From IMG/VR virus record IMGVR_UViG_3300018080_001657, positions 1 through 60,641 of that record: a stretch of DNA of 60,641 nucleotides, one strand, 5' to 3'. The notes beneath the pieces are model-generated. The model was not told where the DNA came from. It made no database searches and saw nothing but the letters and a program-made list of their open reading frames with translations. Positions 1,750 to 45,322 of the stretch are shown one piece after another (within the stretch, counting starts at the first letter, position 1; the number at the start of each line of letters is the position of its first letter). The DNA comes from a virus. Made by a program: the position numbers and the translations under genes.

Positions 1750-2937
1750 ATGAGCAGAGTAGCAAAACTAATCATGGTAACTGGTGCTAACAATAATAAA
1801 TACTATGACATGACAGAAGTTGGCAGCGAGATTCAAGTAAAGTATGGTCGTGTAGGTTCTACTGAATGCCGTGCTAGCTATCCTAGTTACAAATGGGATT
1901 CATTGCTTAAGTCAAAAGTAAAAAAAGGCTACAAGGACGTGACAGGACTTCGTGTTGTGTCTGAGTCAGTGGACTTTAAGAACATTACTAACAATGAGAT
2001 TGATGCTATTGTTGTTAAACTACAGGCGTTTGCAAACAAATCTGTTAGTACTAACTATACTGTAAGTTCTGATGCGGTTACACAAGCACAGGTAGATGAA
2101 GCACAGAGGCTACTTGATGATCTTATGAAGATGATAAATAAGAAGAAGAAAGCCGACAAGAAGTTTGATGATCAACTGCTAGAGCTATATCAAGTTATTC
2201 CAAGAAGAATGTCAGATGTTAAACAACATTTAACAGTGGGTGGCCATGATCCATTAAGAATTATTGGCAATGAACAAGCAACCCTTGATGTTATGAAGGG
2301 TCAAGTTAATGTGGCAGTTGCTAAACAAAGCAACACAGTGGAAGATAAACGTACTATTCTAGATGCTATGGGTCTAGACATTCAGATTGCTACACCAGAA
2401 GATGTCAAGATCATTAAGAATAACCTTGGAGATATTGGTCCTCACTTTAAGACAGCATACAAAGTAGATAACTTGAAGTGTCGTGCCAGATATGACAAAT
2501 GGGTAAAGAAATCTGAGAACAAAAAGAGCATGTTGTTCTGGCATGGTTCTCGTAATGAAAACTGGTGGAGTATTCTTGACTCTGGCTTAGTGCTTCGACC
2601 TACAAATGCTGTTGTTACAGGCAAGATGTTTGGTTATGGATTATATTTTGCCGATAAAGCACGAAAGTCATTTAACTATACGTCATATCGTGGTAGTTAT
2701 TGGGCTAGAGGGTCAAGTGATGTAGCTATTATGTGTTTGTATGATGTTCATCTTGGTAATTGGCTGCACAAGAAAAAACATGAAGGGTGGATGACTCAAT
2801 TAACAGAAGATAAGCTTAAACAAAAAGGCAAGTACGATTCTCTATTTGCTGAAGGTGGTATCGACTTAAGAAACAATGAGTATATTGTATACAATGAAGC
2901 ACAGTGTACACCTAGATATTTAGTGGAGTTTAAATGA
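1750..2937 (+). CDS. PARP-family ADP-ribosyltransferase with WGR domain
   Basis: The 395-residue protein follows the eukaryotic PARP order. A WGR domain spans about residues 8-85, with KYGRVGS at 31-37 in place of WGRVG. A helical regulatory-like region spans about 105-235. The catalytic domain runs from about 240 to 395. The H-Y-E triad is visible: H265 in WHGSRNENW, Y299 in GYGLYFAD and E377 in NNEYIVYN. WGR-PARPs transfer ADP-ribose from NAD+ and often respond to DNA breaks or RNA ends. Here the target could be host proteins, nucleic acid or tRNA. The stop overlaps the next ATG (ATGA), so it is co-translated with a nucleotidyltransferase. This differs from the T4 Alt/Mod type, which uses R-S-E. 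Confidence 0.9.
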   Translation: MSRVAKLIMVTGANNNKYYDMTEVGSEIQVKYGRVGSTECRASYPSYKWDSLLKSKVKKGYKDVTGLRVVSESVDFKNITNNEIDAIVVKLQAFANKSVSTNYTVSSDAVTQAQVDEAQRLLDDLMKMINKKKKADKKFDDQLLELYQVIPRRMSDVKQHLTVGGHDPLRIIGNEQATLDVMKGQVNVAVAKQSNTVEDKRTILDAMGLDIQIATPEDVKIIKNNLGDIGPHFKTAYKVDNLKCRARYDKWVKKSENKKSMLFWHGSRNENWWSILDSGLVLRPTNAVVTGKMFGYGLYFADKARKSFNYTSYRGSYWARGSSDVAIMCLYDVHLGNWLHKKKHEGWMTQLTEDKLKQKGKYDSLFAEGGIDLRNNEYIVYNEAQCTPRYLVEFK

Positions 2938-3917
2938 GTAATGAATTAAGAAAAGCAGCAGAAGAGAATAAAATTCTAGAAATTAGATCTGGGTCTCATT
3001 TATATGGTACAAGTACTCCTGAATCAGATGAAGATTATGTTGGTATCTTTATGCCACCAGCAGAGTATGTGTATGGACTTAAGTCAGTGAAAGAAGTTGA
3101 CCTTGGAACAGAAGATAAAGGGCCTGACGGAAAGAACACTGCTGATGCTATTGACCGTAAGCTGTATGAATTTAGAAAGTTTGTAACACTAGCACTAGCA
3201 AACAACCCTAACATTATTGAGATTTTATTTGTTAACCAAGAGAATATTGTTGATACCAATTCTTTTGGTAAAGAACTATTAGCCAATAGGCATTTGTTTC
3301 CTAGCAAGTTAGCTGCTAAAAAGTTTGTTGGTTATGCCCACAGTCAAAAACATAAGATGATTATCCGTAGAGATCATTTTAATGATTTACGAGAAGGATA
3401 TGCTCTATTAAATAGTTTTCATGACAAAGCTACTATGAGTCAAGTATTTGATCGTCATATAGAGGCGTCCCAAGACCCAATGCATTGCAATCCAGATTTA
3501 TTTACCAAAAAATCAAGTGGAATGCATATTCATGTTGGTGACATTTGTTTCGAGCCAGGAGTTTACGTAAAGAAAGCACGTAAGATGCTTAAGGAATGTT
3601 TAGATAAAGCAACCAACAGATCTGAGCTTGTACTTAAGTATGGATATGATACCAAGTTTGCATCACATCTTATCCGTCTGTTAACTGAAGGCATTACACT
3701 ACTAGAGAAAGGATACTTAACCTTTCCTCTTTACAATGCAGATACTATTCTCAATATTAAGAATGGTTCAATGGACATTAAAGAAATTATTGAATATGCT
3801 GATAAGCTTGAAGCACAGTTAGATAGCGTGCTAGAGAAGTCAGAACTGCCAGCTACTCCCTCCTACAATCAAATCGAAGCTCTTGTTATGCGTATGATGA
3901 AAGAGCACCTACACTAG
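2934..3917 (+). CDS. Pol-beta superfamily nucleotidyltransferase (COG3541/RlaP-like)
   Basis: The motif GSHLYGT...SDEDYVG at residues 20-37 is the Pol-beta-fold signature, with a G-S pair and two metal-binding acidic residues, D32 and D34. The rest (327 residues) resembles the predicted nucleotidyltransferase group COG3541, some members of which sit in RNA-repair operons. The ATG overlaps the PARP stop by four bases, so the two are likely translated together. Together they suggest end modification or repair of RNA; that role is inferred. A degenerate relative lies at 7073-7879. Confidence 0.8.
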   Translation: MSNELRKAAEENKILEIRSGSHLYGTSTPESDEDYVGIFMPPAEYVYGLKSVKEVDLGTEDKGPDGKNTADAIDRKLYEFRKFVTLALANNPNIIEILFVNQENIVDTNSFGKELLANRHLFPSKLAAKKFVGYAHSQKHKMIIRRDHFNDLREGYALLNSFHDKATMSQVFDRHIEASQDPMHCNPDLFTKKSSGMHIHVGDICFEPGVYVKKARKMLKECLDKATNRSELVLKYGYDTKFASHLIRLLTEGITLLEKGYLTFPLYNADTILNIKNGSMDIKEIIEYADKLEAQLDSVLEKSELPATPSYNQIEALVMRMMKEHLH

Positions 3918-7072: not shown

Positions 7073-7879
7073 ATGCAGGAGTTCTACTACGGTTTGCCAC
7101 AAATGCTATGGGATAACCTGTGCATAGAAGCTGAAGATCTGCTCCGAGAAGAAGAGTTGGGTACACATTTGGTAGCAGTATACCCTGCTGGCAATAGGAT
7201 TTATGGGTTAGAGTCTTGTCCACCAGGCATCTTTTGTCTTTATGTGGATACAGTAGAAGCCCTTATTAATCCGCTATCTAACTATCATAAACAATCTGGA
7301 TTCAAAGTCTTCTCTGTTGGAAATAATAGTTGTCCAGTCATTATGGCAGACCTATTCAAATGGACACAATGGATAACCAGCAGAGAGATTGACTGGAGAA
7401 GCAGAGCATTCTTGCACGCTATTCCATTTGGACAACATGTTATTCATGAAGACCCTAGTATTTCAGATATCATGGACGCTTGTCATCAAGCTATGAAAGA
7501 CATTAACTTTATGGTTAAAGATACTGGCAGCTCTACAAACTATACAATTCCATATAGGCACGTTTCAGACTATATAAGTCCAAATTGTTTTCTATATGAT
7601 AGAGCAATGCTAAGCTTATTTCATAAACACAAGTTCATGCCAAATATCAATCCCAAATGGGACAAAGTAATAGGAGAAACTAATCTTGGTATTGAATTGT
7701 CAAAAGTATATAGAGAAAAAGATATAGATTATCGAAAAAGAATATTGGAATATAAGTCTTGTACTATGGTTGGTTATTGGGACGATCCAGGCTGTCCTTA
7801 TGAGCTAAGATGTATCAGTAAAGAATCACTTAGCAATATTAGTAAATCTGTAATAGACTTCTACAGGTTTCAACTGTAG
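7073..7879 (+). CDS. degenerate nucleotidyltransferase-like protein
   Basis: The segment AGNRIYGLESCPPGIFCLYV (about residues 38-57) aligns by eye with GSHLYGT...SDEDYVGIFM of the nucleotidyltransferase at 2934. The catalytic Ser and both metal-binding acidic residues are lost. The 268-residue length and helical C-terminal half are also similar. It may be an inactive paralogue, a regulatory partner, or something else. AGGAGG precedes the ATG, and a TATAAT lies at 7053-7058 without a good -35. Confidence 0.5.
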   Translation: MQEFYYGLPQMLWDNLCIEAEDLLREEELGTHLVAVYPAGNRIYGLESCPPGIFCLYVDTVEALINPLSNYHKQSGFKVFSVGNNSCPVIMADLFKWTQWITSREIDWRSRAFLHAIPFGQHVIHEDPSISDIMDACHQAMKDINFMVKDTGSSTNYTIPYRHVSDYISPNCFLYDRAMLSLFHKHKFMPNINPKWDKVIGETNLGIELSKVYREKDIDYRKRILEYKSCTMVGYWDDPGCPYELRCISKESLSNISKSVIDFYRFQL

Positions 7880-7888: not shown

Positions 7889-8341
7889 ATGTGCGGAATG
7901 AAAACTGTAATAAATGGTTGTTTCGATCTGATAAACAAAGGTCATATAAACCTAATACACTTGGGCCTTAAGTATGCTCAAAGCGGAACGCTACTTGTAT
8001 TGATAAATTCTGACAAGTCAGTAAGAGAAATGAAAGGAACCCATAGACCGTATGACGATGTAGTTACACGGGGTAGCAATATTGAAAAAATTATTCACAA
8101 GTGGTGCCAAAAGAACAGAGACTATCTAAGAACTAAGGTAGAAATCTTTGGTACTGAAAAAGAACTAGAAAAGAAACTTGAAAGATTTCAGCCTGATATG
8201 ATTATACGTGGACACGATAGGCCCGTTGAAGAAATCACTGGCTATGGAAAATGGCCAATACTTATTGTGCCAAGAACTGTAGATGAGAATGGTATTGAAG
8301 TTTCAACAACACGAACTGCACAAGAAAGAGGAAAAGAATGA
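7889..8341 (+). CDS. heptose-1-phosphate adenylyltransferase (HldE C-domain type)
   Basis: The HxGH nucleotidyltransferase motif is in GCFDLINKGHINLIHL, followed by LLVLINSDKSVREMKG and the later PDMIIRGHD and TTRTA elements. This fits the RfaE/HldE domain II that joins ATP and D-glycero-D-manno-heptose 1-phosphate into ADP-heptose. The 150-residue single domain is separate from its kinase, which lies two genes on. An alternative start is the Met at 7898. The next gene overlaps by ATGA. The related glycerol-3-phosphate cytidylyltransferase family is less likely given the neighbouring kinase. Confidence 0.78.
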   Translation: MCGMKTVINGCFDLINKGHINLIHLGLKYAQSGTLLVLINSDKSVREMKGTHRPYDDVVTRGSNIEKIIHKWCQKNRDYLRTKVEIFGTEKELEKKLERFQPDMIIRGHDRPVEEITGYGKWPILIVPRTVDENGIEVSTTRTAQERGKE

Positions 8342-8796
8342 AAGACGAAAGAGGCTACGATCCAATGCACAGGTTGATTTGTAAAAGTCATTCTTCTTTA
8401 GCACAAAAACACCATGAAACCAAAAAGAAATGGGGAGCAGAATTTTTAGTTAGAAACACAGAAAAATACTGTGTAAAAATTATGACCCTTGAGCCAGATA
8501 CACAATGTTCTATGCATTTTCATGAAGACAAAGAAGAAACATTTGTTCTTGTCTCTGGAGAAATGATTGTTGAAACAATCAATACTAAAAATGCAGAAAG
8601 AAGTGTTACACATCTTGTTGTGGTAGGAGATGCTGTAACACTTAAACCAGGCACACCACATACATTCTATTGTCCAGAAGGTGCTATCCAGACGGCAGTA
8701 TTTATTGAAGCTTCAACGGAGGACAGTCCAAATGATAGTTACAGAATCTTCCCGAGCAGAGGGAAAGATGTTGATCATGGGAGACACAATAATTGA
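8338..8796 (+). CDS. cupin (sugar-phosphate isomerase-like)
   Basis: This single cupin barrel has motif 1 HFHEDKEETFVLVSGE (H-x-H and E) and motif 2 PGTPHTFYCPEG, which give the usual metal-binding His/Glu set. The preceding WGAEFLV...YCVKIMTL resembles the cupin domain of type II mannose-6-phosphate isomerases. It lies between the two halves of a split HldE. A ketose-aldose isomerase here could supply D-glycero-D-manno-heptose 7-phosphate in place of GmhA. That is inference; the cupin could also be an epimerase or a binding protein. Confidence 0.72.
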   Translation: MKDERGYDPMHRLICKSHSSLAQKHHETKKKWGAEFLVRNTEKYCVKIMTLEPDTQCSMHFHEDKEETFVLVSGEMIVETINTKNAERSVTHLVVVGDAVTLKPGTPHTFYCPEGAIQTAVFIEASTEDSPNDSYRIFPSRGKDVDHGRHNN

Positions 8797-9646
8797 TGAA
8801 ACTTGGTATGTAGATGCCAGAAAACTTTCTCCCGAAGCACCAATTCCTGTAGGATATCTTACTTCTTCTGTCCCCCATCGCAGTCCTGGAGGAGCAAGCC
8901 TTGCTGCGTCTTATGCTCTAAAACAAGGCTATCCTTTTACCTTCTTGACAGCCACAAGTAACAACAATACAAGATGGCTAGCAGCCAAAGGCATGGACGT
9001 TCATAGTCTTCAGTCTGTAGACAACGTAACTAAGACACGATACATAGATGTAAATTCAAATTATCATCTCTTAAGAATCGACAACGACGAAGTAGTAACC
9101 TTCCCATCTGTCACTTCTGACAAACTATCCCCTGTTTTAGAAGAACTATTAGATAAAGCAACATGTCTTATTATGTTGGACTATCGCAAAGGCATATTCT
9201 CTAACCTAGAAGCAGTTAAAAAGATGATAGCCGAGGCAGTAAGAAGAAACCTACCGGTATATGTCGACACAAGATGCAGTCCATCAAAATTCAGGATGTC
9301 AACTTACCTTAAACTTAACGAAAAGGAATACGTTGCAGCTTGTGCTGCTCTTGGCTTTAACAATTATCAAGATCTTTGCAGTAACCTCAACATACCGAAT
9401 GTAATTGTTACTGAAGGTAAAAGAGGTGCAACCCTGCATTCTGTCACCAATGAAACATTCCACTCTACTCCAAGTAAGGACAGATACAAAGGAATTCCAG
9501 ATGTTACAGGATGCGGAGATGTATTTGATGTCAACTTCTGCTACTATTGTTTTCAGGAGGGTCTTCCACCGACAGAAGCACTGAAGCTCTCCGTAGAACG
9601 GGCAAGTGAGTATGCCCATACAACAATTGGAGACAGACTATGTTAA
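8732..9646 (+). CDS. heptose-7-phosphate kinase (HldE N-domain, PfkB family)
   Basis: I placed the start at 8732 because ggagga (8718-8723) sits at correct spacing, although the frame opens earlier. The gene overlaps the cupin by 65 bases. RfaE domain I hallmarks are KLSPEAPIPVGYL and PGGASLAASYAL near the N-terminus, DYRKGIFS in the middle, and the PfkB ATP/anion motif DVTGCGDVFD near the C-terminus (usually TGAGDTF). The enzyme phosphorylates heptose 7-phosphate at C1. With the adenylyltransferase at 7889 it makes a complete but split HldE. Confidence 0.82.
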   Translation: MIVTESSRAEGKMLIMGDTIIDETWYVDARKLSPEAPIPVGYLTSSVPHRSPGGASLAASYALKQGYPFTFLTATSNNNTRWLAAKGMDVHSLQSVDNVTKTRYIDVNSNYHLLRIDNDEVVTFPSVTSDKLSPVLEELLDKATCLIMLDYRKGIFSNLEAVKKMIAEAVRRNLPVYVDTRCSPSKFRMSTYLKLNEKEYVAACAALGFNNYQDLCSNLNIPNVIVTEGKRGATLHSVTNETFHSTPSKDRYKGIPDVTGCGDVFDVNFCYYCFQEGLPPTEALKLSVERASEYAHTTIGDRLC

Positions 9647-10160: not shown

Positions 10161-10359
10161 GGAGATAGCGAATGTTTTACCCCAGTTTTTGTTTTCAATA
10201 GGGGCTTCGTTAGAAGATTGTAGTTTACAGAGCAGTGAAGAAGTGTTAAAAAGATATGCAGAAGAGCCAACATTCGGTAATGCATTGATGGCACAATCAC
10301 TTTGGATGAAAGAAACATGGGCATTGCCCAACACAGAAAGGGAAACGAAAGATGACTGA
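10072..10359 (+). CDS. hypothetical protein
   Basis: A GTG at 10072 or an ATG at 10078 could start this 93-95-residue basic/helical protein. It overlaps the preceding zinc-ribbon gene by about 85 bases and the next gene by eight. The overlap is larger than usual, but without it the stretch to 10352 would be empty, so I accept it with reserve. The central part, LTNREIANVLPQFLFSIGAS, reads like a globular helical domain. Confidence 0.5.
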   Translation: MKMTSKKLSKEEKATRQLCKTLNQQNLTNREIANVLPQFLFSIGASLEDCSLQSSEEVLKRYAEEPTFGNALMAQSLWMKETWALPNTERETKDD

Positions 10360-10897
10360 ACACTATGAAGAACGAGCAAGAAGAGAAAAAGCACCGATGC
10401 AGTACAGGATTTACAAAGGAATCAAAGGCAAGTCAGGAGCGATGCGACTGAACCTAAAGCGTCCTTATACAAATCCAGATCCAAAAAAATCAGAAGGTGT
10501 CCTGTTTTTAGAAATGGCACCATCTGTTGGACCAAATGATTATGACTGGGAGAACCAAAAAATCATCATGGCCCTAAGTATTGTGGACATCCCGAAAATT
10601 ATTCTTTATTTGAGAAGTCCGGGACATTCTTCCTTCGAACGAACCGATGGAAAACTTAAGTTGCTTCACGATAAAGGTGCTGGTACTGCTAAGAAAGGTC
10701 AAGATGTTAAGACACTTGAAATTGTCAAGTCTGACAGAACTGCAAATTTCTTATTCAACATGTACCAAAACTCAAACGGCAAAAACATCAGTGCCTCTGT
10801 TCCTGTCTCTCCTGATGAAGCAATCGTAATCGGTACACTCCTCCAAGCCGCCATTCCTGTCATTCTTGCCTGGACTGAAGGCCCTTATAACGCATAA
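10352..10897 (+). CDS. Whirly-like single-stranded DNA-binding protein
   Basis: The order of elements matches plant Whirly proteins: a beta-strand GVLFLEMAPSVGPNDYDWEN (49-68; Whirly LEFAP..GVRQYDW), IIMALSIVDI (Whirly VFALSVTEMG), a SSFER...LLHDKGAGT stretch (Whirly SCEFFHDP), VKTLEIVKSDRTANFLFNMY, and SVPVSPDEAIVIGTLLQAAI then PVILAW (Whirly VPVTKAEFAVL...LPYLLGW). Whirly proteins bind ssDNA as tetramers of PC4-like folds and protect organelle genomes. This 181-residue version would be a second candidate SSB beside the SpoVG-type protein. The match is by eye. Confidence 0.72.
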   Translation: MTEHYEERARREKAPMQYRIYKGIKGKSGAMRLNLKRPYTNPDPKKSEGVLFLEMAPSVGPNDYDWENQKIIMALSIVDIPKIILYLRSPGHSSFERTDGKLKLLHDKGAGTAKKGQDVKTLEIVKSDRTANFLFNMYQNSNGKNISASVPVSPDEAIVIGTLLQAAIPVILAWTEGPYNA

Positions 10898-17074: not shown

Positions 17075-19138
17075 ATGAGTCCAGAGATGAAAGACAACCT
17101 AGCGGTGTTGTGCGCTCAGGTTGACAAGAAATATGGTAAAGGTTCTGTGATGAAACTTACTGACAAGGTCTCGTTTGAGCCTGATCAAGTAATTAGTTCT
17201 GAATCTATTGGTTTAGATATGGCTTTGGGTATTGGAGGATACAAGAAAGGTAGGATCATAGAAATTTATGGCCAGGAATCGAGCGGGAAAACAACTCTTT
17301 GTTTGCATGCCGTTGCAAGTGCACAGAAACAAAACTTAAATTGTCTTTATATTGACGCAGAACACTCTTTAGATCCGTTATATGCAAAAACATTAGGTGT
17401 AAATTTAGACAACTTGTTAATCTCTCAACCAGACTATGGCGAACAAGCTTTAGATTTAGTTGATACCTTTGTTAGATCAGGGGAAGTTGGATTGATTGTT
17501 GTTGATTCGGTAGCAGCTCTTGTCCCTAAGAAAGAACTAGAAGGAGACATTGGCGATTCACATGTTGGCCTACAGGCTAGAATGATGAGCCAAGCCATGA
17601 GAAAGATTGCTGGTCAATGTAGTCATACAAATTGTGTAATTATTTTTATTAATCAGATTCGTATGAAGATTGGAGTTATGTTTGGCTGTTTTCATTATGA
17701 TACATTAGTAAATTTTGCAGATGGTAGAAGTTTGCCAATTGGCAAGGTTGTAGACGAAAAAATTAGTGGCAACGTGTATTGTCTAAACCAAGACACTGAA
17801 GAATTGGAAATTAAACCTATCATTGACTGGCATGACAATGGTAAAGTAGAAACACGTAACGACTTTCTTCATATTCAGACAGAATCAATTGATGGAAGAG
17901 GACGTTTTGGTTTTACATGTACACCAAATCACAAAATACTAACTGAAGAAGGATGGAAAGAAGCTAAAGATTTATCATTCGAAGATAAACTTATATCTAA
18001 ATATACAGAAACAGTTAATTGTTCATATAGAAATTTCTTAAATGGTTGTTTAATAGGAGATAGTCATATTAGCATAAGAGACAAGAACACAGGATCTATA
18101 AGAATTCAAGACAACAAAAATAGAGAATACACCAATTGGAAACTAGACAAGTTATCAAAATTTATTGATTTCTCAGAAAGAGAAGTACAACAAGGATACA
18201 GATATGATTCTGAGTACTCTTATGAATTTGCAAAGATAAAGAAAGAATTGGTCAATAGAGATCCAATGTATATGCTAAGAGATTATTCAGATTTAAGCAT
18301 GGCATTATGGATTATGGACGATGGCCATTTGGATTTAAACGATTCTCATTGTAGATATACAATATCAATGAAAAGGTTTAAAAACAATATAGGGAAACTA
18401 ACACAAGTAGCAAGAAAACTATCAAGTTTAGGATTTGAATGCAGTTATAGGCAAAATGATGGGAGTATTATATTTAATAAAGAAACAACGAAATATATTG
18501 CAAGGAGCATATATAAATACATACCAAAATGCATGCAATATAAGCTTCCAGAAGAATTTAGAGGACAATATGAAGAATTTGAATTGTTTAATGCACCAAA
18601 ACTCGAAGTAACAGAGGCAAGTATAAAAGAAATTAGAGAAGCATCAAATCGTCAGATAAGAAACAAACGTAAGTTTGATATCTCAGTAGAAGGTAACCAT
18701 AATTATATGGTTGGTGGTAAATACAACGGAGTAATTGTACACAATTCCCCAGAAACAACAACTGGCGGGAATGCTCTCAAGTTTTATGCATCTCAAAGGC
18801 TAGACATCAGACGCATTGGAAACCTAAAGCGAGGCGAAGACATAATCGGCAACAAAACTAAAGTAACAGTTGTCAAGAACAAGACTGCACCGCCTAAGAA
18901 AGTTGCAGAGTTCAACATTATGTTTGGCAAAGGAATAGATACCGATAGTGAAATCCTAGACTTAGCAATTATGGACCGTATCATTGAGAAAGCAGGGTCT
19001 TGGTACAAACATGAAGGTGTCAGCATTGCACAAGGCGAAGCGAATGCTATCTTGTGGCTCAATGAAAACCCAGACCAAAAGAAAGAGATTCTAAATCAAA
19101 TCAAAGAGAACAGAGGAATTGCAAATGAAAAAGAATAA
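17075..19138 (+). CDS. recA: RecA recombinase precursor containing an intein
   Basis: RecA exteins are residues 1-204 and 558-687, giving a 334-residue mature protein. Walker A is GQESSGKT at 66-73; [20 protein letters not shown] and [14 protein letters not shown] follow. The reading then enters an intein at C205 and returns at S558 with [15 protein letters not shown]. The residue after the intein is Ser where most RecA have Asn, as splicing requires. RecA forms filaments on ssDNA and exchanges strands; in phages it serves recombination and replication. AAGGAG precedes the ATG. Confidence 0.95.
17687..18745 (+). mobile_element. RecA intein with LAGLIDADG endonuclease domain
   Basis: This is 353 codons, precursor residues 205-557. 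The N-terminal splice block is CFHYDTLV, with [18 protein letters not shown] as the TxxH block. The endonuclease motifs are [11 protein letters not shown] and [12 protein letters not shown], the two LAGLIDADG-type helices with acidic residues. The C-terminal blocks are [14 protein letters not shown] and GVIVHN, followed by S+1. The last His-Asn is intact, so splicing looks possible. It interrupts RecA in the conserved MKIGVMFG|S(N)PETTTGG loop. Confidence 0.93.
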
Positions 19139-21442: not shown

Positions 21443-22810
21443 ATGTCATTTGTACATCACAACTCAAAGACACAATTCCAAACTGGGAGTACGACAAAAA
21501 TCATGGAAGATAAAGACAAAAGGAACAATACGGGTGTGGAGTGTGGTTTTATTCACCTCCACACTCATTAGGTTTGCTCAGACTTCAGTCCTCAAGATGG
21601 TGCTCAAAGCTGTACTCAGATTGCTACAAGGGCTGCTGAACTAGGCATGTCGGCTGTTGCTCTTACCGACCATGGCAGAGCTGGCGGCTTGCTTCAGCTA
21701 AAGACAGCATGTCATAAAGCTGGGGTAAAGCCAATCTATGGTGTAGAGTTGTACGTGGCACCCGAAAGCCGATTCACTAAAGAAAAGTTGGATGGACACA
21801 CAAAGACATCCTACCATCTTACAGTGTTAGCCAAGAACGAGGAAGGTCTGAAGAATATCTTTAGGCTAACCTCTCTTGGCTGGCTTGAAGGCTATTACTA
21901 TAAGCCTAGAGTAGACATAGAACTTCTTAAAAAATATTCAGAAGGACTTGTTGTTCTGTCTGGTTGTGGCTCAGGTCGTGCTTCTGTCAAAATTATAGAG
22001 GGCGATTTTAAAGATGCTGTTAAAAATATAAAAACATTAAGGGACATATTCAAAGATGATTTTTATATTGAAGTACAGAATCATAATCTTTCATGGCAAA
22101 AACCACTCAAGCAAGCATTGTTTACATTGTCAGATACACTAACTATTCCTATTGTTGCCACACAAGATTCTCACTATCCTAAGAGAGAAGATGCAGTGTT
22201 GCATAATAATATATGTAAATTAGCAGCAGGCGATCTCTCTTTTGATTCTGACCACTCGTGGTTTAAGAGCAAAGATGAAATGAGAGAAATGTTTGATGCT
22301 GAGAATGGAGAATGGGAAGCTATAGATAATACTTCTATTGTTGCCGACAAATGTCAGTGCGATTGGAAACATGATCAAACTATCTGGCCAGTATATGACT
22401 TGCCAGATGGCACTACGCCTAAACAAAAACTAAGAGAGCTTTCTGAAGAAGGGTTTAAGAAGTACTTTGGAGAAGGCACACAGGAGTATCGTGACCGTTT
22501 AGAATATGAATTAAGAATTATTAACGAGATGGGATTCCCTACTTACTTTCTAGTAGTACAAGACTTTATTAACTGGGCAAAGAACAATGGCATTCCTGTT
22601 GGTCCAGGTCGAGGTAGTGGTGCTGGAAGTTTGGTTTGTTATTGTACTGGCATTACAGGTGTAGACCCAATAAAATATGGATTGTATTTTGAAAGGTTTC
22701 TTAATCCGGCTCGTATGGGAAGTCCGAATTTAGAAACTAAAGAAATTAGTATTGAAGAATTTAAAAATAAAATATTCCCCACATTTGACAAAGATTTATT
22801 GCTAGAATAA
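21443..22810 (+). CDS. dnaE: DNA polymerase III alpha, N-terminal part (amber-interrupted)
   Basis: From 21443 the frame reads MSFVHHNSK..., then GFIHLHTH (PHP domain), a TAG at 21569-21571, and VCSDFSPQDGAQS before continuing without stops. Downstream are ALTDHGRAGG, YGVELYV, GLVVLSGC, ATQDSHYP and the polymerase motif GPGRGSGAGSL, ending FERFLNPARMGS. After about 22723 the reading leaves DnaE homology and stops at 22810. If the TAG is not read through, translation may begin at 21647 with the PHP domain cut. TAG is an ordinary stop elsewhere here, so reassignment is unlikely. Confidence 0.85.
21569..21571 (+). other. in-frame amber codon within DnaE PHP domain
   Basis: HLHTH and SDFSPQDGA are in the same frame, separated by TAG GTT TGC. 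Typical DnaE runs H-x-H directly into S-E-F-S-x-L-D-G, so the nine bases look like an in-frame insertion carrying a stop. It could be a mutation, an assembly error, or a readthrough or bypass site. Confidence 0.85.
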
Positions 22811-23816
22811 GATAGCAGCATGAAACAAATAAACAATAGAATAATAGAGTTATACAAACAGGGAATAGCTGGATTTAAAATTGCAAAAGAATTAAGTCTT
22901 ACCAATCATAAAGTCTATAGTCTTCTTAGAAGCAAAGGAATTACTAGAACAAACAAAGAGAATTATGCTTTAGATTTTATTGATGATTATTTTGAAAAAA
23001 TAGACACAGAAGAAAAAGCTTATTTCTTAGGTCTTATGGCGTCTGATGGTTGTGTGCTAAAACCTAAACAAAGTTCTAGTGTTGTAAAACTAGAACTAAA
23101 ATCATTAGACTCAGAATTGGTTCTTAAATTCTCTAAAGCACTTGGTCTTCCAGAAGAAAGGATAAAAAATTATTCTTATGGACCAAATAAAGGAGAAGAA
23201 TCAACACGCTTGTTAGTTCCATCTGACAAGCTTGCATTCGATTTAAACAAGTTTGGAATTAAACCAAAAAAAACTTTTGACATTACATATCCTAATATAT
23301 CAGAAGATCTAGATAATCATTTTATTAGAGGTTATTTTGATGGAGATGGTTGTATCACAACTGGGCCAACTATAAAAATTGTTGGAACTATTGATTTTTT
23401 AATTATGGTACAGAACAAGCTAATACAAAATTGCTCAGTAGGGAAAACAAAACTACAACAAAGACACCTAAGCAGAGAAAATAATATTAGATCGCTGGAA
23501 ATTGGTGGGCGCTTACAGGTTAGTCGTGTGTATCATTTCTTGTATACTAATTCTACTATATGTCTAGAACGGAAAAAGAATAGATTTATGGAGTTATTAA
23601 ATGAGAATAGAAAATAAAATTATAAAAAAAGAATACCAGACTAATGTTATTTCAGAATGGTTAGAATTAACAAACGAACAGAAAGCATATGTATCTTATT
23701 TATTAAGCACAAATAAAAAATACACAAATACTAATAATTCATGGGTGCTCTATGGGCTCGGAATTTCAGACGAGAAGCCAAATTCAGCTGTGTCAAGGAA
23801 TAATGATGGTGGTGGA
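22724..23816 (+). other. intervening sequence in dnaE (probable self-splicing intron)
   Basis: DnaE homology stops at ARMGS (22723) and resumes at LCDIDVDFCRDRR (about 23817). The roughly 1.1 kb between has stop codons and a complete LAGLIDADG endonuclease gene. The flanks lack intein splice blocks (no Cys/Ser block A, no terminal His-Asn), so RNA splicing fits best. A short hairpin ggctcg/cgagaagcc lies at 23754-23779 near the 3' end. I could not confirm a group I core or exact splice sites. Confidence 0.6.
22820..23617 (+). CDS. LAGLIDADG homing endonuclease
   Basis: The 265-residue protein has two dodecapeptide motifs, AYFLGLMASDGCV (about 68-80) and HFIRGYFDGDGCI (about 172-184), each with the acidic metal-binding residue. 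The N-terminus (IIELYKQGIAGFKIAKELSL) looks like a helix-turn-helix found in such enzymes. It lies wholly inside the dnaE intervening sequence. Homing endonucleases cut intron-less alleles and spread the element by repair. Confidence 0.9.
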   Translation: MKQINNRIIELYKQGIAGFKIAKELSLTNHKVYSLLRSKGITRTNKENYALDFIDDYFEKIDTEEKAYFLGLMASDGCVLKPKQSSSVVKLELKSLDSELVLKFSKALGLPEERIKNYSYGPNKGEESTRLLVPSDKLAFDLNKFGIKPKKTFDITYPNISEDLDNHFIRGYFDGDGCITTGPTIKIVGTIDFLIMVQNKLIQNCSVGKTKLQQRHLSRENNIRSLEIGGRLQVSRVYHFLYTNSTICLERKKNRFMELLNENRK

Positions 23817-26027
23817 TTATGTGATATTGATGTTGATTTCTGTCGAGACAGAAGAGATAAGGTTATTAAGTATGTAGCAGACAAGTACGGAGCAGATAAG
23901 GTTGCACAGATTGGCACATATGCATCATTTAAACCTAGAGGTTCATTAAGAGCATTTGCACGTGTAATGGGATACGACCCAAATGTAGGACATGTTCTTG
24001 CAAACATGGTGCCCCCAGACGTATCAGGCAAACAGGCTAAATTTAATGATGTAATAGAAGTCTCTCCTGAAATCTTAAAAACAGAGTGGCCAGACGTAAT
24101 TGACATGGCAAGAAAAGCAGAAGGATTACACAATCAAGCTGGCGTTCATGCTGCTGGTGTGGTTATTTCTGATACACCAATTATGGAAAGAGCACCTTTG
24201 TTTCTTGGCAAGCATAAAGAGATTACAACACAGTTCGATATGCATGACGTAGAAGATATTGGTCTTGTTAAGTATGACTTCTTGGGACTAAGAAATCTTA
24301 CTGTTATTCAAGATACAGTTGATCTCATTAAAAAAACACATGGAGTAGAAATAGATTTTGATAACATCGAAGATAAAGACGAAAAAGTTTATGATGAAAT
24401 ATTTAAACAAGGAAGACTTGAAGGCATCTTTCAATTCGAAACATCTTCTGGATTCAAAGATCTATGTGTACAGGTAAGACCCAAGTCTATTGAAGACCTA
24501 GCTGCTATTACATCTCTGTTTCGTCCTGGTCCACTAGGAACTAAAGATGACGATAATAAAAGCATGGTTGATTACTATGTAATGGGCCGCAGAAAGAACA
24601 AAGGAAAATATCTTATTCCTGAGCTAGAACCAATCCTTAATGAAACATATGGTGTTATGACATATCAAGAACAGATTATGAAAATCTGTACAGATATAGC
24701 TAGCTACACGTTGCCTGAAGCTGATAACATGAGAAAGATTATCGGCAAGAAACTTCCTGAAAAGATGAAGTTAGAGCGAGAAAAATTTGTAAGTGGATGT
24801 ATTAAAAACAATATTGACGAAGCAGTGGCATCAAAACTATTCGATGACATTGAAGGCTTTGCCTCTTATTCGTTCAACAAATCTCATGCCGTTGCATACT
24901 CAATGATTTCATATATGACAGCATGGCTTAAAGCATACTATCCTCATGAGTTCTATACAGCGCTATTGAACTCTACAATTGATAACCAAGACAGGATGGT
25001 TAAATATATTTATGCTGCCAAGGAAGATGGAGTTCCTGTTCTTCCTCCTGATGTAAATAAATCTGGATCTAAATTCACATTAGACGAAGGTACAATTCTA
25101 TTTGGCCTGGTAGGGATAAAAGGAGTTGGAGACAAGGCAGTTGAACACCTTGTAGAAGCTCGGACTGGCATTGAGTTTGGCACGTTGGAGGATCTTGTTA
25201 GAGCAAAGATTAAAAAAAGCGTTCTAGAAGCACTTGCAGAATGCGGCGCGTTAGAAGAGATCACAGATCTTTCTAGAAATCAAATCAAAGATCATGCAGA
25301 AATGCTAATCAAACACTTTAACAAATTGACAAAGTGGGAAGAAAGAGCACAGAGATATGCAGCTAGAGAGCAAGAGATTAAAGACGCTGTAGCAGAGGGC
25401 CATAAGCCTCCTCGTAGATTGCCAAAGCTACCAGACAAACCAGAACTTAAACATATTGAGGCTACCGATCCTCTTAGTAGATATGAAAGAATTAAGCTAG
25501 AGAGAAAGACACTTGGCTTCTACTTGACAGGACATCCATTAGACGATTATCCTGGTGTGGTGAGATTAGCTAAATATACTATATCAGGTCTACGCGGAGG
25601 TGCAGCTAAAGACAAGGAAAAGATTAGTATTCCTGTTGTTGTGTCGTCTGTTACTGAGAAAAGAACTCGTAAAGGAAAAAACTATGCAACATTAATCATA
25701 GAGGATTGTACAGGCCGCATGGAGGCAACAGTTTTTTCAAGGGGTTGGGAGAAAATCAAAAACAGTATCGAAGAAGATATGGTGTGTGTCTTGCAAGGCA
25801 GAATTCATAAAGAGAACTCAGACAACGAGGACTCTCCACCAATTATTAGTATATCCGTTTCTGGCATTAGAAAGGTTAATAATGACGTGTCTAATATGAT
25901 TAAAGACATTGGTATTACTTTACGAGACGGAACAACTGTCACATTTAAACCAAGTGAGAATCAAGATGTTGGTTCTTGGCAGCGTGCAGCTACATATTGT
26001 GACAATCTACAAAGGATGGGATATTAA
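23601..26027 (+). CDS. dnaE: DNA polymerase III alpha, C-terminal part
   Basis: Reading from about residue 73 it is DnaE: CDIDVDFCRDRRDKVIKY with two catalytic aspartates, then LHNQAGVHAAGVVI, KYDFLGLRNLTVI, SLFRPGPLG, YGVMTYQEQIM and FNKSHAVAYSMIS. A helix-hairpin-helix region follows (LVGIKGVGDKAVEHL) and a C-terminal OB fold (SIPVVVSSVTEKRTRKGKNY). Residues 1-72 come from the intervening sequence, so the annotated ATG is probably not the true start. It is the replicative polymerase of the phage. Confidence 0.92.
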   Translation: MRIENKIIKKEYQTNVISEWLELTNEQKAYVSYLLSTNKKYTNTNNSWVLYGLGISDEKPNSAVSRNNDGGGLCDIDVDFCRDRRDKVIKYVADKYGADKVAQIGTYASFKPRGSLRAFARVMGYDPNVGHVLANMVPPDVSGKQAKFNDVIEVSPEILKTEWPDVIDMARKAEGLHNQAGVHAAGVVISDTPIMERAPLFLGKHKEITTQFDMHDVEDIGLVKYDFLGLRNLTVIQDTVDLIKKTHGVEIDFDNIEDKDEKVYDEIFKQGRLEGIFQFETSSGFKDLCVQVRPKSIEDLAAITSLFRPGPLGTKDDDNKSMVDYYVMGRRKNKGKYLIPELEPILNETYGVMTYQEQIMKICTDIASYTLPEADNMRKIIGKKLPEKMKLEREKFVSGCIKNNIDEAVASKLFDDIEGFASYSFNKSHAVAYSMISYMTAWLKAYYPHEFYTALLNSTIDNQDRMVKYIYAAKEDGVPVLPPDVNKSGSKFTLDEGTILFGLVGIKGVGDKAVEHLVEARTGIEFGTLEDLVRAKIKKSVLEALAECGALEEITDLSRNQIKDHAEMLIKHFNKLTKWEERAQRYAAREQEIKDAVAEGHKPPRRLPKLPDKPELKHIEATDPLSRYERIKLERKTLGFYLTGHPLDDYPGVVRLAKYTISGLRGGAAKDKEKISIPVVVSSVTEKRTRKGKNYATLIIEDCTGRMEATVFSRGWEKIKNSIEEDMVCVLQGRIHKENSDNEDSPPIISISVSGIRKVNNDVSNMIKDIGITLRDGTTVTFKPSENQDVGSWQRAATYCDNLQRMGY

Positions 26028-37816: not shown

Positions 37817-39808
37817 ATGGCTCAACGTGTTCATGGTGTTATAAAACCTAACAGGCGTGGCAATGTACCTGCTAGAGTAGTGAACGTCCAGTCCAAAAAG
37901 AAAAATGAAAATAATAAGATTCGTCTTGATAAACTAACATCTGATAATCCTGTTATCTGTGTTAAGAGAAGACTTGGTGGCATTGGTGATGTCATTATGA
38001 CAACACCTCTTCTTAAAGAAATAAAAAGACTAATTCCTGATTGTCATCTAATATATGCTACAGACCTAGAGTATGCAGACGGAGCACTAGGAGATATAAT
38101 TAGACATAACCCATATGTTGATGAGCTTATACCAAATTCGCAAATCGCAGAAAGTACCTATGCCTATAGTGTAGATGTTACTGCTACTGGTTTAGCAAAA
38201 GAAAAAGCAGGACAAATACCTCCAAACAGAATTGATATGTTTGCAGAAGCTGTAGGTGTATGCGTAGGTGCAGATCCAGTTCCTGTATATGAAGTGACTG
38301 ATGAAGAAAGAGAGATGGCAACAAAGCGTATTGAAGCTGATTTCCTTGGACCAGCAAAAAGTAGAGAAGATATAAAGTTAATTGTAATTCAAGTAAGAAG
38401 TAACGACGCCAGAAGAACATGGCCTCTTGATCATATGGATAAATTGGCTGATATGTTAGCAAAAGACCCAAGCATTAGAGTTCTTTTGTGTGACTGGGGA
38501 GATAAAGCAGATAGATGGGAATCAAGAGAACGGGTATGGGCCATTAAGAATGAAAGCATTGTAGACATAGCTGCGATTATAGAACAATCTGATTTAGTTA
38601 TCTGTCCAGACAGTAGTATTCTTCATCTTGCTGGTGCGTTAAGTAAAAAGATTGTTGCTATCTTTGGGCCAATACCTCCTGAGAGCCGTATTAATCATTA
38701 TACAAATGCACATGCTGTTACATTAGGTTTGTCTTGTCAGTATTGCTGGTATACTCCAATGTGTATTAGAAGCAACAACACAAAATTTGATTGTCTAACA
38801 AAACTTACACCAAAAATGGTACACGACGTGGCAATAAAGAAAATGGCAAATGAATATATTGTAGAAACGAAAGTAGAATATGGTAAAAATATGACTACAG
38901 TCGGGGGACAAGATCCTGTTATATTAGTCAAAAGAACAACAGGAGGCATTGGCGATCTTGTTATGGCTACAGCAGGCATAGAAGCACTTAAGGAAAAGTT
39001 TCCTAACAAGAAATTACATGTTGCAGTAAATAAAAATCTACATCCAGTACTAGAAAACAATCCATATATTGACCATGTGCTTGATATTAATCAGCCAATA
39101 AATGCAAAAATCTATCATATGATTTTTGATATTTCTCATCCTTGTGCGCGATACGAAGTAGCAAGACTAAGAGCCAGAAAGCCTGTTGAAAAGAATAGAG
39201 TTGAAATTTATGCAGAAGCACTTGGGTCAAGAGAAATTATTAAAGATCTTAAACCAAGGATACATTTTACAGAAGAAGAACTTAAAGAAGGAAAAAAGTT
39301 TTTATTAGAAAATGGACTGAACCCAAACAAAAAGACTATTGCTATTGCAACTAACAGTACAGAACTTTACAGAGACTGGCCAGAAGAGAATTACACAGTG
39401 CTATTTGAAGCATTGAAAGACAAGTTTAATATTGCAATATTCCACAAAGAACGTAAAAACTTTTACCCTGGAATTATAGATGCTCGTGGTCTTCCATTAA
39501 GAAAAGCAATTAGTACCATGGCAACATGTGATGGTCTTATCACTGTAGACACAGGGTACTTGCATATTGCAGCAGCATTAAATATACCAACAGTGGCATT
39601 GTTTGGTCCTATTGATTACAAAGCAAGATGTAAAGGATATAAGAACACAACAGTTATTGTGTCAAATCTAGACTGTATTCCTTGTTGGCGTAATGGCACA
39701 ACAAAATGTAAACATACTGGTTTAGTAAAATCTTATTCTAGATGTATGGAAAATATTCATGTTAAACAAGTAATTAAAGTAGCACTTACAAAATTTAAAG
39801 GAATATAA
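37817..39808 (+). CDS. double-domain ADP-heptose:LPS heptosyltransferase (GT9 x2)
   Basis: Two complete GT9 domains are fused. Domain 1 (about 50-345) has RRLGGIGDVIMTTPLLKEIK, VICPDSSILHLAGAL and VAIFGPIPPESR. Domain 2 (about 368-655) has KRTTGGIGDLVMATAGIEAL, TVDTGYLHIAAALNIP and TVALFGPIDYKARC. The D-[ST]-[GS]-x-x-H motif is the donor-site signature of heptosyltransferases. Each domain ends with a CxxC-type pair (CQYCW, CIPCW). The enzyme transfers heptose from ADP-heptose. Two domains could give two successive transfers. Confidence 0.85.
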   Translation: MAQRVHGVIKPNRRGNVPARVVNVQSKKKNENNKIRLDKLTSDNPVICVKRRLGGIGDVIMTTPLLKEIKRLIPDCHLIYATDLEYADGALGDIIRHNPYVDELIPNSQIAESTYAYSVDVTATGLAKEKAGQIPPNRIDMFAEAVGVCVGADPVPVYEVTDEEREMATKRIEADFLGPAKSREDIKLIVIQVRSNDARRTWPLDHMDKLADMLAKDPSIRVLLCDWGDKADRWESRERVWAIKNESIVDIAAIIEQSDLVICPDSSILHLAGALSKKIVAIFGPIPPESRINHYTNAHAVTLGLSCQYCWYTPMCIRSNNTKFDCLTKLTPKMVHDVAIKKMANEYIVETKVEYGKNMTTVGGQDPVILVKRTTGGIGDLVMATAGIEALKEKFPNKKLHVAVNKNLHPVLENNPYIDHVLDINQPINAKIYHMIFDISHPCARYEVARLRARKPVEKNRVEIYAEALGSREIIKDLKPRIHFTEEELKEGKKFLLENGLNPNKKTIAIATNSTELYRDWPEENYTVLFEALKDKFNIAIFHKERKNFYPGIIDARGLPLRKAISTMATCDGLITVDTGYLHIAAALNIPTVALFGPIDYKARCKGYKNTTVIVSNLDCIPCWRNGTTKCKHTGLVKSYSRCMENIHVKQVIKVALTKFKGI

Positions 39809-39810
39809 AA

Positions 39811-40689
39811 ATGTCAAACATTCCTAGCTCTGTATTTGTAACTTTAGGTGGTGGTCTTGGTGATGTATTTTATACGTATGTAAACGGTAAAAATGGATGG
39901 GGTTATATAGAGTCTTTAAAAAAGACATATCCAAGTATTAAAATAAAAGCTATGTGTGCAACTCATAATCCACAAACATTAGACTTTATTGAAAATAATC
40001 CATATATTGATTCAATAGTTGAATTTGGATGGGTATTAGACGCAACAGAATTATGGAAAAAATACAAAGGAGATGCTGTACGTCTTGATAAACAAAAAGA
40101 CTTACTTAAAAAATTAAAAGATAAAAAACCTAATGTTTATTTAAGTCAAACAGACAAAGAAACTGTTAACAATATAACTAGTAGTGGAAATTTTGTGCTT
40201 CTTCATCCTTTTGCAGGAGAGCCACATCGTAGAGCACTGCCAGCTGAAGAATATATACCATTGATCGATAGTATTATAGATAAACTTGGATTAAATGTTG
40301 TTCTTATTGGCGGTAGCTATACAAGAAGTAATCGAGTCCACAAAGAACTAAAGACAGAATACTTAGATTACAATAGAAGTGGACTGCATAATATTATTGG
40401 CAAATCAAATGCTCGTATATGTTTGACATTGGCAAGAAAACAAACATGCTTTTTGGGTTCGTGGTCAGCGTACTCTTGTGCTTCATGGCTGTACAATAAG
40501 CACACAACAATATTGCTCCAAGAAAATGACGTAGAGAAACTTAATAAGAAACTAAGTAAAGGACAAAGATGGGACGGAGCAAAATGTGACATGATAACAA
40601 CCAAAGGACCATATCATAATCCAAAAGACACAAACTTCAAGAAGGTTCGAGAAGAAGCCTTTAACAAGATACAAAATGAAACAAAATAA
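39811..40689 (+). CDS. GT9-like glycosyltransferase
   Basis: The 292-residue protein starts with GGGLGDVFYTYVNGKNGW, a GT9-like phosphate-binding loop, and has NNPYIDSIVEF, LLHPFAGEPHRRALPAEEYI, VVLIGGSYTR and an LGSWSAYSCASWL motif where GT9 has D-[ST]-G-x-x-H. The donor-site Asp is replaced by Gly, so its donor may differ. Related genes at 40676 and 43647 share this variant. Confidence 0.7.
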   Translation: MSNIPSSVFVTLGGGLGDVFYTYVNGKNGWGYIESLKKTYPSIKIKAMCATHNPQTLDFIENNPYIDSIVEFGWVLDATELWKKYKGDAVRLDKQKDLLKKLKDKKPNVYLSQTDKETVNNITSSGNFVLLHPFAGEPHRRALPAEEYIPLIDSIIDKLGLNVVLIGGSYTRSNRVHKELKTEYLDYNRSGLHNIIGKSNARICLTLARKQTCFLGSWSAYSCASWLYNKHTTILLQENDVEKLNKKLSKGQRWDGAKCDMITTKGPYHNPKDTNFKKVREEAFNKIQNETK

Positions 40690-41497
40690 AGTATATTTAG
40701 GGTTGATTGGAGGGCTTGGGGATGTAATTTATCAGTATTTACATGACCCAGCATGGCAATCTCTTGCTGACTACAAAACAAAGAACCCTAATACTTGTAT
40801 CAAGGCTATCGTAGTCTCACACAACCCTCTAGCCCATCAAATCGTAGAATTAAACCCTTATATAGATGAAGTAGAACAACATCCTCCAAAGAGAGAGATG
40901 AGAGATAAAAACTGGAAGCATCACGAAGTCATACATCAGTATGCACAAGGAGAATCAAGACTTATCGGGTCTAACCTAACACACAATAGACCTGTATTCT
41001 ATCTAAAGAACTCAGAAGTTGAGTTAGTAAATCAATTAGTTGTTGGCAAGACAGCTGTAGTACATCCATTTGCATCAGAAGAAGCAAGAGTTTGTATCCC
41101 ACCAAAGGACTATAGATCTATTGTCGACAAATTAAGACACAAAATGTTCAATGTAATTATGCTTGGCGGAAGCTATGTAAAATCATTTGGAGAAGAAGAA
41201 AAGTATAATAAAGTCGAGAAGTTCTTGTACCCTAAGACAGATGGGTTCACGAATCTAATAGGCAAAACAAATGCAAGAACTTCATTAGCCTTAGTAACTA
41301 ATGCTGATTTGTTTGTTGGAACTTGGTCTTGTTATGGTGTAACAGCATGGATGCACGGTATAAAATCAATAATATGTGTGCCTGACAAAATGTCTGAAGG
41401 ATGTTATAAAATACATGATGGTAAATATAAAAACCATAACAAAGCAGATAAGATAATTAAAGAATCAAATAGCAAAATGATAGTGAGGCTAATATGA
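40676..41497 (+). CDS. GT9-like glycosyltransferase
   Basis: This 273-residue paralogue of the upstream gene shares [74 protein letters not shown] and [13 protein letters not shown]. It overlaps its neighbours by 14 and 4 bases, so the cluster is translated as one unit. The acceptor is unknown. Confidence 0.7.
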
Positions 41498-42758: not shown

Positions 42759-42759
42759 A

Positions 42760-42975: not shown

Positions 42976-43654
42976 AGCTCTTATTAAAAAAACAATCAAT
43001 GGGGTTCAGAATTCTTCACTAGAATACATGAAGAGATATAGCTTATGTGATTGTGTTACTCTTGGATTCCCCGAAACATATAACGCTATGGGATTAGGAC
43101 TAGATGTATTCAACAGCAAGATAGAAGCTGGTAAGAAATACATCATGCCATATGCAAACAAAGTATCTGAGGAAGACATTAGAATCCTTAGACCTGTCGG
43201 CTACAAGACTCCCAAAGAAATTGAGACATTCTTATGGAGTCCATTTCATGATTCCACAAGCACATTCTATGATCTAGGTGACGACGTCATTCATTCTTTT
43301 AGATTTAAAGGACAGTGGTTAAGGAAATATAGCTTTGTAAAGCAACGTTCTGAACCATTGTTTACAGAAGTTATACGGTCAATTAAAACAATGAAAACAA
43401 AGATATATAACATGTGGGGATCAGATGTAAACTGCATGTTGTTGTTCTACGATAACTCTAGGTTGAATAATAAGACTGTCAAGAAGAGAATGGAAAGATA
43501 TAACGAAATATCACTAGAAGTATTGCATGACTGGCATGAATTGAAAGTTGAGCTGACAGAAGAAGACAAAGAAGGAAAAGAATGGGAGCATTATAAGAGG
43601 CCAGCAAGAATGAATTTATTAGATCAAATCAAGAAGATAGAAGACAATGCATAG
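42968..43654 (+). CDS. hypothetical protein
   Basis: The start at 42968 overlaps the upstream gene by eight bases. The 228-residue protein has a central CDCVTLGFPETYNAMGLGLD and aromatic-rich segments; the second half is helical and charged. No family was recognised; it may belong to the sugar island. Confidence 0.6.
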   Translation: MDEALIKKTINGVQNSSLEYMKRYSLCDCVTLGFPETYNAMGLGLDVFNSKIEAGKKYIMPYANKVSEEDIRILRPVGYKTPKEIETFLWSPFHDSTSTFYDLGDDVIHSFRFKGQWLRKYSFVKQRSEPLFTEVIRSIKTMKTKIYNMWGSDVNCMLLFYDNSRLNNKTVKKRMERYNEISLEVLHDWHELKVELTEEDKEGKEWEHYKRPARMNLLDQIKKIEDNA

Positions 43655-44507
43655 TAAATTCTATGTACATACTTGTGGAGGAATGGGAGACCATTATCTA
43701 GGATACTTCAACCCAAACTGCAAAAAATATGGACTTGGTTTTATTGAACAGCTTAAAGAAGAATACCCTAACTCAACTGTAAAACTTATTGCTCATCCTG
43801 CCAACCCACAAGGACCAGAGTTCTTTAGATACCATCCACATATAGATGAGATTGAAACACATCCATGGGTTGCAGGGCTAGGGAACTGTAAGAACAAAGA
43901 GAAAGAAGCAAAAGGATATATAGAGCTAGAAGAATTTGGTAAAGAGAAGGAATGGGCAAAGAGAAAGAATGAAACGATATATACTTCTGAAGAAGATGAC
44001 AAGTTCTTAAAAACAATCTTAAATAAAAAACCATTTGTTGTTTTACATCCATTCGCCAGTGATAAACAAAGAATGCCCATGCAACCAAGACAATTTTTTC
44101 CTTTGGTTGATAGTATTATCAAAGACTATGGCATCAAAGTAATTGTTTTAGGTGGCTCATACAAGAGAACAAGAAATAGACTAGATCAAATCAAAGAAGA
44201 ATTCCCCTATGAGAGAGAAGGTTTAATCAATCTTATCGGCAAGACCAATAGCAGAACAGCAGCTAAAATAATACACTCATCGAAGGTATTAATTGCTAAT
44301 CATTCTGGGCTATGGTGTGCTGCCTCAATAGGAGGAATAAAACTTATAGCAATGCACAGGAATCCAGAGTACCATAGCAAATGGATCAAATCTATCTTTG
44401 TAGATGATGGAGCTTCTTCTGTTGTCATAGATGTAAATGAAAAGATTAGAAAAAACATAATTAGAGCAAATATCATAGAGCGACTAGATAAAATCTTGAG
44501 GGCATAA
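43647..44507 (+). CDS. GT9-like glycosyltransferase
   Basis: The 286-residue protein shares the cluster's variant: TCGGMGDHYLGYFNPNCKKY, YHPHIDEIETHPW, VVLHPFASDKQRMPMQPRQF, VIVLGGSYKRTRNR, LINLIGKTNSRTAAKII and IANHSGLWCAASIGG. The H-S-G variant lies where GT9 has D-S-G-x-x-H. It is the fifth GT9-like domain in the island. Confidence 0.72.
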   Translation: MHSKFYVHTCGGMGDHYLGYFNPNCKKYGLGFIEQLKEEYPNSTVKLIAHPANPQGPEFFRYHPHIDEIETHPWVAGLGNCKNKEKEAKGYIELEEFGKEKEWAKRKNETIYTSEEDDKFLKTILNKKPFVVLHPFASDKQRMPMQPRQFFPLVDSIIKDYGIKVIVLGGSYKRTRNRLDQIKEEFPYEREGLINLIGKTNSRTAAKIIHSSKVLIANHSGLWCAASIGGIKLIAMHRNPEYHSKWIKSIFVDDGASSVVIDVNEKIRKNIIRANIIERLDKILRA

Positions 44508-44508
44508 A

Positions 44509-45312: not shown

Positions 45313-45322
45313 AGAGGCACAT

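Follow-up and report, generated by a model that had tools for sequence, protein, structure and literature searches.

The window analysed here, a linear IMG/VR virus record of 60,641 bases (IMGVR_UViG_3300018080_001657), carries three overlapping genes for an adenylyltransferase, a cupin and a kinase that, judging from sequence and gene context, quite probably belong to an NDP-heptose pathway whose first step would be catalysed by a metal-dependent cupin instead of the SIS-fold isomerase GmhA. We also regard as likely a broader reading, according to which the cupins would form a hitherto unrecognised family and a second class of sedoheptulose 7-phosphate isomerase, without structural relation to GmhA. 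This family would have taken over the place of GmhA in operons of DPANN archaea, undergone fusion with HldA in either order and spread among marine T4-like phages and into the present phage lineage, giving a GmhA-independent route to ADP-heptose. Since the record is linear and probably an incomplete fragment, the absence of a gene from the window is weak evidence.

The gene trio lies on the plus strand between positions 7889 and 9646. An HldC-like adenylyltransferase of 150 aa (7889..8341) shares four bases (ATGA), its stop and the next start, with the gene of a 152-aa cupin (8338..8796), the proposed sedoheptulose 7-phosphate isomerase and GmhA analogue, which in turn overlaps by 65 bases the gene of a 304-aa HldA-like kinase of the PfkB family (8732..9646). 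The kinase ATG at 8732 is preceded by GGAGG, the GTG at 8681 in the ORF listing being merely the earliest possible start, and all three frames are open and have good start contexts. Coordinates and family matches confirm the overlapping arrangement described in the initial annotation, the matches being clear but divergent, with all three proteins below the curated equivalog cut-offs. The accompanying idea of a split HldE stands insofar as adenylyltransferase and kinase are separate genes; such a split is by itself no novelty, HldA and HldC being established as separate enzymes. Mono-domain nucleotidyltransferases are, in addition, one of three known classes (PMC11573728). With such a split being ordinary, the cupin becomes the question. 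A DNA-level search of phages gave no match, and a scan of viral contigs with the single kinase sequence likewise returned no relative; alignments and the cupin were needed.

The adenylyltransferase has its best NCBIfam match in TIGR02199 (rfaE_dom_II, 9.9e-14), accompanied by matches to Pfam CTP_transf_like (PF01467, 3e-7) and to the PHROG 'heptose adenylyltransferase' (7e-16). The kinase scores 105.8 bits (2.3e-30) against TIGR02198 (rfaE_dom_I), whose curated cut-off is 345; the next PfkB family reaches 19 bits. Among solved structures, D-beta-D-heptose 7-phosphate kinase (4e84, 3e-30) comes nearest to the profile of the kinase family. The earlier concern that the kinase might be of another PfkB type is not borne out at family level, where rfaE_dom_I is far ahead. 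The GxGD, SPEAP and DYxKG motifs are retained (G17-D18, S33-P37, D150-Y151-K153-G154 and G260/G262/D263), including the catalytic Asp263; gone are the two conserved Asn of the GGAxNxAxN motif, N57 and N61. The adenylyltransferase, for its part, has NKGH in place of HxGH, with Asn at the position of the first His, a state seen in the window alone among about 108 relatives compared, nearly all of which have HxGH. NKGH and HKGH differ by a single base (AAC/CAC), and the AAC could be a sequence error.

These losses raise an alternative in which the pathway is decaying in the window, its adenylyltransferase and kinase being impaired, such that no ADP-heptose would be made here though the family makes it elsewhere. 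The singularity of NKGH and the long branch of the cupin in the tree fit this alternative, as does a sister phage, described below, in which the adenylyltransferase is encoded at another place, fused to GmhB, and has its motif intact. Against it stand the three open frames with their start contexts, the core residues of cupin and kinase kept in both window and sister phage, and the one-base, possibly erroneous, nature of the NKGH change, and we consider decay unlikely.

The cupin matches Cupin_2 (1e-9), the ManP-isomerase C-terminal domain (1e-6) and the cyanophage family phrog_7851 (1.7e-24); the WbuC family, which has a cut-off of 42 bits, was rejected on a score of 32 bits. Both family match and AlphaFold2 model make the protein a cupin and not an SIS-fold enzyme. 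The model is a confident barrel (pLDDT 88) with near folds that include the Thermococcus phosphomannose isomerase (Z 15.0), D-lyxose isomerase (Z 13.9) and many other cupins, generic cupins being ranked first by Foldseek alone. The fold thus does not decide the function, and we therefore relied on active-site residues and context. The nearest PDB sequences to the phage cupin profile are D-lyxose and L-ribose isomerases, and an archaea-weighted profile matches quercetin dioxygenase cupins as well.

In TsLI, the lyxose isomerase of Thermofilum, sugar and metal are bound by K62, H75, H77, K86, E88, H143, E156 and D163, and mutating the equivalents of K86, E156 and D163 abolished activity (PMC8378251). 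The first seven of these residues align with K47, H60, H62, K65, E67, H108 and E124 of the window cupin. Its metal ligands are all present, H62, E67 and H108 in 84 of 84 sequences of the family and H60 in 80 of them, and the active-site residues K47, K65 and E124 are invariant throughout the 84. By its spacing, D163 would correspond to column 131, which is Pro in the window and Asp or Glu in 81 of 84 sequences, in an alignment that is ambiguous by two residues and in which Asp133 is invariant. In the tree, the cupins of the window and of the sister phage form a long branch outside the main family, so that the fusion and operon evidence given below reaches the window cupin by homology only.

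In a rival explanation, the cupin would be a phosphomannose isomerase, or an isomerase of some other sugar phosphate, supplying GDP-mannose synthesis elsewhere and standing beside heptose genes by chance. This would account for the Pfam ManP_isomerase match (1e-6), for the place of the Thermococcus enzyme among the closest folds and for an equivalog-level GDP-mannose 4,6-dehydratase (534 bits) in the glycan cluster of the window. We find this explanation improbable, because the HxHxxKxE signature suits lyxose and ribose isomerases and because the cupin is tied to heptose by its recurrent fusion with the HldA kinase and by the way it alternates with GmhA in the hld operon. The proposed activity is chemically close to a known one: the conversion of sedoheptulose 7-phosphate into its manno-aldose, which is the GmhA reaction, has the same stereochemistry as that of fructose 6-phosphate into mannose 6-phosphate, which cupins are known to catalyse.

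A scan of 84,980 prokaryote genomes placed most relatives in Woesearchaeota and further DPANN archaea, candidate phyla, Planctomycetota and Campylobacterota; MAGs make up most of these archaeal and bacterial data, and some of the 'MAG' loci that contain the complete phage module are probably contigs of phages. Kinase and cupin are fused in a single open frame, with the cupin C-terminal, in Woesearchaeota, a nanoarchaeal relative and a Bdellovibrionales MAG, and with the cupin N-terminal in Peregrinibacteria, the two orders falling into separate supported clades of the tree. Within one archaeal phylum, three loci (L185, L186 and L188) have a GmhA-HldD-kinase-(HAD)-adenylyltransferase operon and eight (L119, L121, L128, L132, L144, L147, L183 and L184) a cupin-HldD-kinase-(HAD)-adenylyltransferase operon, which by gene order read as the same operon with its first gene swapped between GmhA and cupin.

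The two proteins also exclude each other among 157 genomes of one archaeal phylum, 34 of which have a strong HldA kinase. Of these kinase-positive genomes, 28 were identified by a route other than the cupin; strong GmhA is found in 17 of the 28, the cupin in 4 and both in 0 (Fisher p 0.016, or 3e-4 with 6 cupin-ascertained genomes added), and the cupin occurs in 0 of 42 kinase-negative genomes (Fisher p 0.022 for the cupin-kinase association), with the genomes in both tests not being phylogenetically independent. GmhA above its cut-off is present in 0 of 43 cupin-bearing genomes; an Opitutaceae genome combines the cupin with a GmhA just below the cut-off, and SIS homologues of weaker score occur in six further genomes with the cupin. 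In the archaea with the cupin, kinases, adenylyltransferases and HldD reach the NCBIfam cut-offs in one or another operon, and that of archaeon L151 joins HldD and GmhB, both over the cut-off, to a kinase-cupin fusion and HldC, in a genome where a search for GmhA gave no match. As kinase, adenylyltransferase, HldD and GmhB all reach their cut-offs, the identity of the pathway is firm in those archaea.

In three Campylobacterota (L114, L120 and L127; Poseidonibacter and a Campylobacterales MAG), the cupin has an HldC-like gene and a glycosyltransferase as neighbours in a genome without an HldA-type kinase. This pairing with an adenylyltransferase alone, together with the sub-equivalog scores and lost residues of the window kinase and adenylyltransferase, would suit a trio that activates a different sugar, either another heptose or a C5 or C6 sugar phosphate, through the same order of isomerase, kinase and nucleotidyltransferase steps. 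The cut-off-level pathway genes of the cupin-bearing archaea, distributed across operons, and the genes of the GT9 heptosyltransferase family in both window and sister phage argue against a different sugar, which we hold to be doubtful.

The initial annotation had proposed a search for the same trio in other phages, and tblastn located it: the three proteins co-occur only in marine cyanophages, with scattered single matches elsewhere. The cyanophage cluster consists of the adenylyltransferase, the kinase, a protein of about 110 aa recorded as 'phosphoheptose isomerase', the cupin, recorded as 'cysteine dioxygenase', and in most cases an HldD-like epimerase. Adenylyltransferase, kinase and HAD lie within 5 kb of the cupin at 59 of 86 viral loci, and within the same distance at 28 of the 35 loci whose flanks extend for 4 kb or more in both directions. 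The recorded isomerase was rejected as a cyanophage GmhA, the 110-aa protein being an HAD with DxDGT and not an SIS protein; it also has a DD motif, is related to capsule-type HAD phosphatases (9iqw, 8e-15; 1xpj, 2e-11; TIGR01689) and is best read, on these motifs and matches, as the phosphatase step. A search of six complete cyanophage genomes for SIS and SIS_2 domains found none, the control genomes giving matches. With kinase, phosphatase, adenylyltransferase and epimerase present, only the isomerase is missing from the cyanophage set, to which the cupin has been added.

Two labels in cyanophage records, for example that of P-SSM2, look wrong: the 'phosphoheptose isomerase' at L003:7646-7990 (phrog_1238) is HAD phosphatase-like, and the 'cysteine dioxygenase' at L003:7971-8327 (phrog_7851) is likely a sugar isomerase.

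Could the host provide the missing step? A host GmhA might supply heptose 7-phosphate and leave the cupin as an accessory protein or a later-acting NDP-sugar epimerase; epimerases and proteins without enzymatic activity are common among cupins, and the window is a fragment. We judge this highly improbable, as the cupin retains a complete metal site with its Lys and Glu and the operon swap involves GmhA, with HldD staying put. For the cyanophages, a host-supplied GmhA was rejected as unlikely on the ground that cyanobacterial LPS is without heptose (PMC4390846), which makes their hosts unlikely sources of the enzyme.

The closest view of the window's own lineage comes from the sister phage (IMGVR_UViG_3300037297_000275, loci L200 and L206-L208), which is collinear with the window. 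Its cupin and kinase, again encoded by overlapping genes, are 47% and 42% identical to those of the window, and the retention of the core residues of both proteins at such identities implies selection. Its trio locus is without the adenylyltransferase, which is encoded elsewhere in a 355-aa HldC-GmhB fusion (L207:2957-4021; rfaE_dom_II 132 bits, GmhB 136 bits) and has the intact motif HLGH. A GT9 pair of 655 aa is 49% identical to the window protein at 37817-39808, and a search of the sister phage for an SIS_2 domain found none. The sister phage therefore encodes an isomerase candidate, a kinase, a phosphatase, an adenylyltransferase and GT9 proteins, and lacks only GmhA. Operon swap, fusions in both orders, exclusion of GmhA, isomerase residues and this gene set together support, at the level of sequence, the earlier proposal that the cupin takes the place of GmhA. 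The sister genome also contains about six paralogous proteins of about 150 aa (MCLxI..DQ..NEKDL..WFG.RKKFAYVYK) scattered among its genes at L200:6152-13216, two of which lie between the counterpart of window 7073-7879 and the cupin, i.e., at the position of the window's adenylyltransferase.

Across the window, SIS_2 (PF13580) and SIS (PF01380) domains were sought and none was found, and a regex search of its ORFs for an HAD-type DxD motif also gave none, hence no GmhB is visible. The initial remark that neither GmhA nor GmhB can be seen holds for the window itself; in its relatives GmhB is not always lacking, being fused to the adenylyltransferase in the sister phage, and a small HAD is present in the cyanophages. 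Further along the plus strand, a 663-aa protein of the GT9 heptosyltransferase family (37817..39808; PF01075, 2.9e-29; TIGR02193 heptosyltransferase I, 1.6e-32, under the cut-off) is the proposed user of NDP-heptose; a second GT9-family protein (40676..41497) is a weak match just under the cut-off (PF01075, 2e-4), and a third lies at 43647..44507 (PF01075, 3e-6). The glycan cluster at 37817-47772 holds, besides the GT9 proteins, FkbM-like and other methyltransferases, a sulfotransferase and a DegT aminotransferase.

Other features were noted elsewhere in the window. A protein with a PARP catalytic domain is followed directly by an RlaP-type nucleotidyltransferase (1750-3917), possibly an ADP-ribosylation or RNA-repair pair. 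A Whirly-domain protein (10352-10897; PF08536, 6e-15), of a family better known as a plant transcription and ssDNA-binding factor, is kept in the sister phage, and a proteasome-subunit-like phage protein (12488-13030) scores just below the PF00227 cut-off. At 17075-19138, a LAGLIDADG-containing segment, probably an intein, interrupts a UvsX-like recombinase ORF, and the DNA polymerase at 21647-26027 is divided into two ORFs with the ORF 22820-23617 between them, in the sister phage being a single ORF.

In the pathway that we favour, the cupin would isomerise sedoheptulose 7-phosphate, as the operon swap and the fusions suggest, and the kinase, whose PfkB family membership is clear, would add a C1 phosphate to give the 1,7-bisphosphate. 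A GmhB-like HAD phosphatase, absent from the fragment and present in the sister phage and the cyanophages, would then remove the 7-phosphate, the adenylyltransferase would make ADP-heptose, and GT9-family enzymes encoded 28 kb downstream may transfer the heptose to a glycan of the host surface or the virion. The same cupin would also serve DPANN archaea, and some bacteria of candidate phyla, in which GmhA is missing but HldA, HldC and, as a rule, HldD are present. The weak points of this reading are the missing first His of HxGH in the window adenylyltransferase, the two missing Asn of the kinase and Pro at cupin residue 131; NKGH, the loss of N57 and N61 and the long cupin branch mean that the window version may be specialised or decaying.

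All synthesis of glycero-manno-heptoses is considered to start with GmhA, and the enzyme is being pursued as a target for antibacterials. If the proposed role of the cupin is true, GmhA-based surveys miss heptose producers, including phages and DPANN archaea; which organisms may make ADP-heptose is of interest because ALPK1 senses this molecule as an immune agonist. Such a role would likewise explain the function of a common marine cyanophage module, and two names used across many phage records would need correcting, that of the HAD ('phosphoheptose isomerase') and that of the likely isomerase ('cysteine dioxygenase'). A search of the open-access literature for a cupin with GmhA, heptose or sedoheptulose isomerase returned no relevant paper, and a GmhA-independent cupin entry to ADP-heptose is probably undescribed in the open-access papers searched, in which Tang et al. 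is represented by commentaries.

Compared with the ADP-L-glycero-D-manno-heptose pathway (GmhA, HldE or HldA plus HldC, GmhB and HldD), the window has a kinase and an adenylyltransferase of the same HldA and HldC families, and GmhB- and HldD-like partners accompany the cupin in its relatives; it differs in having no SIS-fold GmhA but a cupin instead, placed between separate adenylyltransferase and kinase genes. In 2024, Tang et al. (Science) described HldE-type enzymes in viruses and archaea, as conveyed by two commentaries (PMC11461863, PMC11573728) whose accounts mention no cupin isomerase and present the viruses as being without the phosphatase, whereas the sister phage has an HldC-GmhB fusion. 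The cupin D-lyxose/D-mannose and L-ribose isomerases (2y0o, 7nzo, 3kmh and 5avp) share with the window family the fold, the HxH..KxE..H signature and the downstream Glu, and perform aldose-ketose isomerase chemistry; they act, however, on unphosphorylated sugars and are about 20% identical to the window family, which is tied to heptose genes. The type II/archaeal cupin phosphomannose isomerases (7zvy, 7zvm) are likewise small single cupins (fold Z ~15) that convert a sugar-phosphate ketose into a manno-aldose with the stereochemistry of the proposed reaction, but they have no HldA/HldC association, and the type II motif differs from the window cupin in its spacing around the metal Glu. The nearest counterpart in gene content is the LPS/heptose module of cyanophages (P-SSM2, S-CAM1, S-SSM7 and P-TIM68; PMC7378029), where adenylyltransferase, PfkB kinase, cupin and HAD are adjacent, with an HldD-like epimerase in most, and where the labels given to HAD and cupin have hidden the gap left by the missing isomerase.
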